The notes below the pieces were generated by a model. The model saw only the letters and a list, made by a program, of their open reading frames with translations. It was not told the DNA's origin and did no database searches. Below are positions 2,976 through 20,249 of a stretch of DNA of 56,694 nt, one piece after another. This stretch comes from Thermovirga sp. (lineage in GTDB: Bacteria; Synergistota; Synergistia; Synergistales; Thermovirgaceae). Made by a program: the position numbers and the translations under genes. The DNA lies in assembly GCF_017656375.1 (NCBI RefSeq), contig NZ_JACDOB010000009.1, positions 1-56,694 of the forward strand. Reading direction: 5' to 3'. Position 1 is the stretch's first letter; every line of letters starts with the position of its first letter.

Positions 2976-3608
2976 ACAATAATCTCCAAAAGCCTTACGA
3001 AGCCTTTCAATCTCTTCCAATTCTAGCTGCATAGGATTTCCGGCACATCTTGCCTTGTAATAGATTTCAGCCAAAAATTCGACTACTTCAGCCACCATCA
3101 AAGCATTTTTTATAGAACTGCCCACTGCTACCATGCCATGATTTGCCAGCAAAACCGCCTTGTTAGTACCTATAGTTGAGACGGTTTTGCGAGCCAATTC
3201 TTTCGTCCCAAAAGTGGCGTAAGGGGCCACAGGAACTTTATCTCCGCAAAAAGCTATATAGTAATGAATTGGGGGTATTTCCCAACCCAGGCAAGCTAAT
3301 ATAGAACAGTACAATGAATGAGTATGTACCACTGCCTTTATGTCAGGTCTCGACTCGTATAATGCAAGGTGTAAGCTAAGCTCTGTTGAGGCTTTACGTG
3401 CCCCATCAATAAGAGCCCCTTTTTTTGAAATTATCACTACGTCACCGGCTTCTATTTCATTGTAAGGCACAGCACTTGGAGTGATAGCTATATTTTGCCC
3501 ATCTCCCGTTAATAAACTTAAGTTGCCACCTGTTCCCTTGATTAACCCTAATTCGAACATCTTCCTGCCGTAGAAAGCCACAGCTTCTCGTTCAAACTGA
3601 TATATCAT
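2952..3608 (-). CDS. Class II aldolase/adducin family (FucA/AraD-like) aldolase
   Basis: 218 residues. Visible family motifs: K-G-T-G-G-N-L-S-L phosphate/substrate loop near residue 25, the catalytic glutamate in A-S-T-E-L-S-L-H, the zinc ligands H-T-H-S, and LLANHGMV with the third histidine. This is the L-fuculose-phosphate aldolase / ribulose-5-phosphate 4-epimerase fold. FucA-type aldolases split phosphorylated sugars to dihydroxyacetone phosphate plus an aldehyde; which sugar is used here cannot be told, and no sugar kinase or isomerase lies beside it. Single gene, convergent with the symporter operon. Confidence 0.8.
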   Translation of the reverse strand: MIYQFEREAVAFYGRKMFELGLIKGTGGNLSLLTGDGQNIAITPSAVPYNEIEAGDVVIISKKGALIDGARKASTELSLHLALYESRPDIKAVVHTHSLYCSILACLGWEIPPIHYYIAFCGDKVPVAPYATFGTKELARKTVSTIGTNKAVLLANHGMVAVGSSIKNALMVAEVVEFLAEIYYKARCAGNPMQLELEEIERLRKAFGDYCGGQRSEK

Positions 3609-19148: not shown

Positions 19149-19799
19149 CTACGATTCTGCATTTTCCTTGTTTCCCTTGACCTTCGCCAGTTTATAGCTA
19201 TTACCCATTTTATTATATACTCCCAGAACTTTGCTAATATATTTTTTGCCATTTTTGCCTAAATATCTGGCAAGGGCTTTTTTAACATCATAATTACTGG
19301 ATTTCATATACCAAGAAAAAATATAAGTACCTGCCATTATATTGTTTCTTGGCTCCATAAGGTCTTTAAGGCTTTTTATCTGATTAAATGCAGATCTAAG
19401 TCCCTTTTTATGAACTTTCCAATTAATCTGCATCAAGCCATACGCGTATTTCGATCTCGCATTCCTCTTCACTGTAGATTCTTTTATTATCAAAGAAGCT
19501 ATTAAAAAGGGATCTATCCCAAAGAGCTTTGAAGACTCCATGACATAGCTCGCATATTCCCATGCTTCTTCTTTTCTCAATTTATGATTCGCTCTCAGAA
19601 AACTTTCAGCTATTATGGATCTTTTCACTACACTTTCAGTGCTAATTTCACCGGGGCTTATTTCTGCCGCAGTATTCTTGTGTTCTAACCTAACCAGGCA
19701 ATCTCCTTCAGCTGAGGACACACCAGGATAAAATAAAAGTATTAAAGCTATCACAAAGAAGATAAAGACACAAACGGAAATTCTACGAGCCTCAACCAA
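19149..19799 (-). CDS. Lytic transglycosylase (SLT domain), secreted
   Basis: 216 residues from a TTG at 19799 with AAAGGAG 8 bases upstream; longer in-frame starts lack a ribosome binding site. N-terminal hydrophobic signal (residues 6-26, V-S-S-A cleavage-like end). The lysozyme-like domain has the catalytic glutamate in L-I-I-K-E-S-T and the downstream Y-A-Y-G-L-M-Q-I-N motif; a helical C-terminal repeat G-K-N-G-K-K-Y-I-S-K-V follows. It would cleave peptidoglycan glycan strands with 1,6-anhydro end formation. Confidence 0.85.
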   Translation of the reverse strand: MVEARRISVCVFIFFVIALILLFYPGVSSAEGDCLVRLEHKNTAAEISPGEISTESVVKRSIIAESFLRANHKLRKEEAWEYASYVMESSKLFGIDPFLIASLIIKESTVKRNARSKYAYGLMQINWKVHKKGLRSAFNQIKSLKDLMEPRNNIMAGTYIFSWYMKSSNYDVKKALARYLGKNGKKYISKVLGVYNKMGNSYKLAKVKGNKENAES

Positions 19800-19861
19800 G
19801 TTAACCACTCCTTTTTTCAAATAAAACCAACGAAATGGACGAACCAAAGTGTACCTTATAA

Positions 19862-19909
19862 AAAAGGGAAGGGGCAAGCTTTTATTTAAAAGCTTGCCCC
19901 TTCCCTTTT
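19862..19909 (-). terminator. Strong terminator after the selenoprotein gene
   Basis: Perfect 22-base stem (19862-19883 / 19888-19909) with a 4-base loop, followed on the minus strand by TTTTTT. It lies 11 bases past the selenoprotein stop codon. Confidence 0.9.
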
Positions 19910-19920
19910 CTTATTGCTTA

Positions 19921-20208
19921 TTAAACTAGAGCTGTTGGTACATATAAAACCCAACCATCCCAACTCTTTTGAGCTTCCACCTTAACCGTGTCTTTAGAGA
20001 ATTTCATTCCTTTAGGAATCCAAATAGTAAGCTCCTGATCTTCTAAGGCAAAATAATCAGAAGCTGCTTCAGGCTCACCGCTCTCGACGAGAGCTACAGG
20101 GATCCTGCATCAGCCACTGCCTATAGTAGTCTCCACCAAGTGCCCTGCAAGCCCTTGGGAAGATAAAACATCCTTAGCCTTATCTGAAACCTCTAACTTT
20201 AAATCCAC
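19921..20208 (-). CDS. HesB-like (CC/Se-motif) selenoprotein with in-frame TGA
   Basis: 95 residues from GTG 20208 (GGAGGG 8 bases upstream) to TAA at 19923-19921. Codon 33 is TGA (20112-20110), inside G-S-G-U-C-R-I-P-V; the frame is otherwise open and coding in character on both sides. The shape (short N-terminal helix, G-x-G-U loop, then beta-rich A-L-V-E-S-G ... T-I-W-I-P-K) resembles the HesB/IscA fold, and the adjacent Sec-Cys matches the small family annotated as CC/Se motif selenoproteins. The C-terminal Cys-Gly-Cys of true IscA is absent. A hairpin with the hallmarks of a bacterial SECIS follows the TGA. A sigma-70 promoter and a strong terminator make it a single-gene unit. Function unknown; redox or metal handling is likely. 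Standard gene finders would split or miss it. Confidence 0.85.
20080..20112 (-). promoter_or_regulatory. Bacterial SECIS element next to the Sec TGA
   Basis: After the TGA (20112-20110) the minus strand folds into a perfect 6-base stem GCTCTC (20094-20089) / GAGAGC (20085-20080) with a three-base loop GTC. The loop begins with G and starts 21 bases after the TGA, within the distance seen for SelB-binding elements, which need a G in the first two loop positions (established knowledge). Confidence 0.75.
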
Positions 20209-20249
20209 TATCAGTACCCTCCTTCTATGTCTTAAAAATATCCGCGCTT

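Follow-up and report, generated by a model that had tools for sequence, protein, structure and literature searches.

A probable selenoprotein with an A-type carrier fold in Thermovirga sp. and its relatives across Synergistota

The A-type Fe-S carriers IscA, SufA and ErpA (PF01521) have a cysteine at position 35 and a CxC motif at the C terminus. HesB-like selenoproteins (TIGR01911, and NF038090 for the IscA/HesB type) belong by name and fold to the same superfamily, with selenocysteine (Sec) near the first ligand cysteine. NF041239 is a separate NCBI family, that of the CC/Se motif (seleno)proteins, first predicted in Moorella thermoacetica. It is already catalogued, with its motif given as CxxU (PMC13188914), and Synergistota are already known to be rich in selenoproteins (PMC5029168). 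Here we analyze a 56,694-nt stretch of DNA (the window) on contig 9 of a Thermovirga sp. genome (G000; 1.8 Mb in 85 contigs, 99% complete) that very probably encodes a 95-residue protein made with Sec at position 33, judging from its sequence and that of its homologues.

The gene and its flanking signals

An earlier sequence-only reading proposed a 95-codon frame interrupted by TGA within G-S-G-U-C, leaving the strand unstated. We found this frame on the minus strand, running from a GTG start at 20208 down to 19924, with a TAA stop at 19921-19923. Its sole in-frame TGA is codon 33 (20110-20112, context IGSG-U-CRIP), and Cys34 comes next. With TGA read as Sec, the product is VDLKLEVSDKAKDVLSSQGLAGHLVETTIGSGUCRIPVALVESGEPEAASDYFALEDQELTIWIPKGMKFSKDTVKVEAQKSWDGWVLYVPTALV. 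Scanning the window for other TGA-split frames with more than 100 codons on each side returned none.

The same reading had assigned the gene its own ribosome binding site, promoter and terminator. The first is evident in the region AGAAGGAGGG (20217-20226, minus strand), which places GGAGG 8-9 nt ahead of the GTG, and AAGGAGGGT is kept in the same-genus genome G001. The terminator is likewise clear, as a near-perfect inverted repeat followed by a T run (19862-19909, minus strand; -40.5 kcal/mol, z = -8.3) that is kept with changes in G001; an Rfam scan of the locus gave nothing beyond chance matches to its stem. The promoter claim held up less directly, since a strict sigma-70 scan of the locus called none. 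That scan requires a -10 box ending in T and so missed TTGATA-N17-TATAAA (20278-20250, minus strand). We consider a promoter there likely, because the block is almost unchanged in G001 while the bases around it have drifted.

Divergent from the gene lies a pseudouridine synthase (PF00849; 20317-21093, plus strand), which could also use the candidate promoter. Downstream, behind the terminator, is an SLT-domain lytic transglycosylase (19149-19877, minus strand), whose true start is probably below 19862. Both neighbors fall outside the unit: with its own ribosome binding site, candidate promoter and strong terminator, the selenoprotein gene is probably transcribed alone. In the same-genus genome, transposase-like genes (by eye; L069, 2459-3688 and 7063-8225) flank the orthologue; they are absent from the window.

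Selenocysteine at codon 33

Checking the genome for selenocysteine machinery recovered the full set. The selA (578 bits) and selB (384 bits) genes adjoin each other on contig 1, a tRNA-Sec (selC) with anticodon TCA (UCA) is on contig 3 (78.9 bits), and selD is on contig 19 (349 bits). The selD gene (L036, 1501-2430) is itself a selenoprotein gene, in which the codon of the SGU motif is TGA.

The read-through protein was matched in 43 of 61 related genomes, nearly always by a sequence with exactly one in-frame TGA at the same place, and the sequence 3' of the TGA is conserved across the whole family. A family profile search was positive in 74 of 188 Synergistota genomes and found no family member in the other 114. 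Contig searches used a 12-row alignment, the 40-row version being too diverse, and returned 18 loci, by their named records Synergistota without exception, and no homologue was found in plasmid and phage collections. G000 itself has four paralogues, on contigs 9 (the window), 6, 36 and 12, each with a TGA in its core. The tree we built (82 rows, few columns) carries no claim about deep branching among paralogues.

Among 85 aligned homologues, the residue-33 column is UGA in 68 sequences and codes for Cys in 10; the other seven comprise four with Ser, two with Arg and one with Trp. The sequence-only reading had named a genome lacking selA/B/C, or homologues without Cys or Sec at this position, as grounds against it, and neither check refuted it. 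A lone stop within an otherwise open frame is also what a pseudogene carrying a nonsense mutation would show, or an error in sequencing, with TGA as a genuine stop. Retention of the TGA in many genera and in all four G000 paralogues, the predominance of Cys among the substitutes and the conservation of the SECIS leave that reading a vanishingly small probability, and we rejected both pseudogene and sequencing error on the conservation of the TGA. An alternative genetic code was also considered and dropped. Decoding of UGA as another residue such as Trp, or termination to yield a functional 32-residue peptide, is highly improbable: one relative (L074) does have TGG at this codon, but Cys is the usual substitute, the Sec machinery is complete and the sequence after the TGA is conserved family-wide.

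The Cys forms include that of L125 (G140), where Sec and Cys copies lie in tandem; a SECIS persists in the Cys copy (TGT) in decayed form, as if Sec had only recently been exchanged for Cys. Ser, Arg or Trp replaces Sec in L056, L057, L064, L126, L127 (one genus), L074 and L075; some of these forms keep a Cys-rich C-terminal tail, and their function, as far as sequence can tell, must differ from that of the Sec forms.

The sequence-only reading also placed a 6-bp hairpin with a G-first loop 21 bases after the TGA. This hairpin is present as GCUCUC-GUC-GAGAGC (20080-20094, minus strand), the candidate upper hairpin of a bacterial SECIS (bSECIS), but its six-pair stem begins 15 nt after the UGA and it is the loop that lies at 21 nt. 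Published bSECIS elements have a loop of 3-9 nt with G within its first two bases, a stem of 4-16 bp, a distance of 16-37 nt from the UGA and a minimum free energy (MFE) of -7.5 kcal/mol or below (PMC13188914). The hairpin falls within every one of these ranges (loop GUC, 6 bp, 21 nt, -8.4 kcal/mol). Taken alone, such a structure is not rare, as 3.7% of the window's TGA triplets are followed by a comparable one. When the gene was recoded synonymously, 4.3% of sequences had a comparable hairpin and 0.25% had the same stem at the exact place.

What raises the hairpin above chance is its conservation at the same distance across the family. Sixty-one of 67 Sec homologues pair at five or more of the six stem positions, at the same distance and without gaps, and a qualifying hairpin was observed in 51 of 57 sequences against 11.6 expected from codon resampling with the protein sequence held fixed. 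Compensatory changes point the same way. The pair formed by the third base of Ala39 with the first base of residue 43 (Ser/Gly) is C-G in some members and U-A in others, and one clade has swapped CUC/GAG for ACG/CGU. The apical GU is invariant among 56 distinct sequences, and four later, more distant members have AUA. Non-Sec relatives mostly lack the pairing, with 13 of 15 pairing at four positions or fewer; the remaining two appear to have been converted recently and carry a SECIS remnant. In an independent-contrast test, the Ala39/residue-43 pair moved in the same direction wherever both changed, and with just 2-3 contrasts on well-supported branches this covariation did not reach significance. 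We take the family-wide conservation of the hairpin as decisive for a predicted SECIS, in agreement with the original proposal of a selenoprotein with an adjacent element.

We read codon 33 as Sec because of the full sel machinery, the UGA/Cys column and the conserved, covarying SECIS. SelB, tRNA-Sec and the bSECIS just 3' of the UGA would then insert Sec at position 33 with no stop.

Relation to IscA and to known selenoprotein families

An AF2 model of the protein (pLDDT 87) was compared to the PDB with Foldseek. The leading matches were of the SufA, IscA, HI1723 and DsrR types, followed by a clear drop. Scores for the window protein were E about 0.01 (best 0.009), with probability up to 1.0 and TM-score about 0.5, and the contig-6-type paralogue matched better (E = 4e-4). 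The model thus supports placement in the IscA/HesB fold superfamily. A search of PDB chain sequences with the family profile gave nothing significant.

In a profile comparison to eight IscA/ErpA-type sequences, Sec33 aligned opposite Cys35 of E. coli IscA (E = 0.0016), whereas 12 shuffles and one reversal gave E values from 0.016 to 0.9; the hhalign probability of the IscA profile match was low, at 16%. This computation shows Sec33 at the predicted position of the first cluster-binding Cys of IscA. The window protein therefore shares its fold with the A-type carriers and has Sec where they have their first Cys, but it lacks their C-terminal CxC.

The sequence-only reading had labeled the protein "HesB-like / CC-Se", which merges two separate NCBI families. 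The HesB/IscA fold stands, but membership in the HesB-like selenoprotein models does not: TIGR01911 and NF038090 did not match the protein and had zero matches in 61 and 41 Synergistota genomes, and the HesB-like selenoprotein motif UxGP (PMC13188914) is absent, the window protein reading UCRI. The nearest family is NF041239, the only model to match in an NCBIfam search (E = 7e-8), although at 32.5 bits the protein falls short of the curated cut-off of 40 bits. Homology spans 86 of the 91 model positions and places Sec at a Cys column. This model matched 39 of 40 family members (best 2e-13), and the contig 6 paralogue exceeds the cut-off at 42.5 bits.

The window protein seems to lack the CC pair itself. 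In a substitution scan against NF041239, Cys at residue 32 gained 6 bits and Ser at 33 lost 3.5 bits, which suggests, from substitution scores, that the CC pair corresponds to residues 32-33. The window protein has Gly32-Sec33-Cys34, so that the first Cys of the motif would be missing and an extra Cys follows the Sec. Pfam gave no match for the window protein; PF01521 matched 8 of 40 family members (best 2e-5), the window protein not among them. By profile homology, the window family is related to a known, uncharacterised selenoprotein family.

Thiol partners, paralogues and possible roles

A Cys next to Sec and a Cys towards the C terminus seldom occur together in the family. Among proteins with a Sec-Cys (UC) motif, 9 of 12 distinct sequences lack a C-terminal Cys, whereas 40 of 51 distinct sequences without UC have a C-terminal Cys (Fisher p = 8e-4, uncorrected for shared descent). 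The UC type includes the window protein, its G001 ortholog and relatives in G004, G038 and G023. This anticorrelation suggests that Sec pairs with one thiol partner, which would lie next to it in some members and in others on the C-terminal tail, the site of the IscA CxC. In the window protein, Sec33 and Cys34 would form a vicinal selenol-thiol pair that substitutes for the C-terminal Cys kept by most paralogues, and the pair may serve as ligand to a soft metal or to an Fe-S cluster, or may cycle via a selenenylsulfide.

We hold with good confidence that the best overall explanation is a cytosolic 95-residue selenoprotein with an A-type carrier fold, SECIS-directed Sec33 and a Sec-Cys site for soft-metal/Fe-S or redox chemistry. 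The biochemical role is harder to predict, and handling of metal or clusters is our tentative suggestion. A metal-free thiol/selenol oxidoreductase, reducing peroxide or disulfide through a Sec33-Cys34 selenenylsulfide cycle, is possible but doubtful. Sec adjoins a Cys, paralogues without the pair mostly carry a C-terminal Cys able to resolve, and most uncharacterised selenoproteins are likely redox proteins (PMC13188914); the fold, however, is that of an A-type carrier rather than thioredoxin, and a UxxC motif is missing. A role outside both metal or cluster handling and thiol/selenol redox seems unlikely.

The IscA fold and the Sec at a ligand position also raise the idea of a Sec-dependent Fe-S cluster carrier standing in for the A-type carriers. 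PF01521 proteins were found in none of 41 Synergistota genomes compared to 9 of 14 control genomes, an absence that allows such a role without showing one. Against it, A-type carriers are missing from many bacteria (PMC2682760), the family is itself missing from 114 of 188 Synergistota, and no suf or isc genes were noticed beside the genes examined. We judge this substitution to be very unlikely, and return to the broader reading of a metal, cluster or redox site.

Genomic context differs among the paralogues. Directly behind a pseudouridine synthase lie 44 of the 67 Sec forms, usually with an HD-domain protein before and often with glutamate dehydrogenase after. This locus (HD-domain protein, pseudouridine synthase, selenoprotein, glutamate dehydrogenase) appears in most Synergistota families examined (L041, L038, L044, L006, L008, L009 and others). 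The pseudouridine synthase beside the window gene is divergently oriented and shares 28-35% identity with the enzymes of the conserved locus. No client is conserved with the window's own type, which was found only in G000, G001 and G004. The contig-36 type is placed immediately ahead of an aldehyde:ferredoxin oxidoreductase gene, and a paralogue with a GGUCSR motif precedes this gene in L039 (2640-2936, minus strand) and L043 (1995-2291, minus strand). The contig-12 type has a signal-like N-terminal segment, by which it is probably exported, and follows NiFe hydrogenase genes and a DnaJ-domain protein. In L040 (about 2977-3267, plus strand), L042 and L045, the signal-like paralogue has the DnaJ-domain protein on one side and another small protein of membrane type on the other, and it follows NiFe hydrogenase and a probable maturation protease.

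A bolder account is that Synergistota, lacking A-type carriers, multiplied a Sec version of the fold, so that a genome may carry as many as four paralogues with a separate client for each; Sec would bind metal or cluster and would not act as a redox catalyst. We think this improbable, if a little less so than the substitution for A-type carriers considered above. If true, one paralogue would serve beside aldehyde:ferredoxin oxidoreductase, one would be exported beside NiFe hydrogenase, one would belong to the pseudouridine-synthase/glutamate-dehydrogenase locus, and the window form would be the one with a vicinal Sec-Cys.

The known biology of Sec decoding is unchanged by this protein, which is a variant of an already known kind, since both the selenoprotein wealth of Synergistota (PMC5029168) and family NF041239 (PMC13188914) were on record. 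Routine gene calling would overlook or truncate this probable selenoprotein, and the closest curated model leaves it unclaimed; its family is multi-copy across Synergistota and has cytosolic and probably exported forms. On an IscA-like fold, forms with Cys next to Sec can be set against forms whose Cys is C-terminal, a clear structure-function contrast that opens an uncharacterised selenoprotein family to functional tests.
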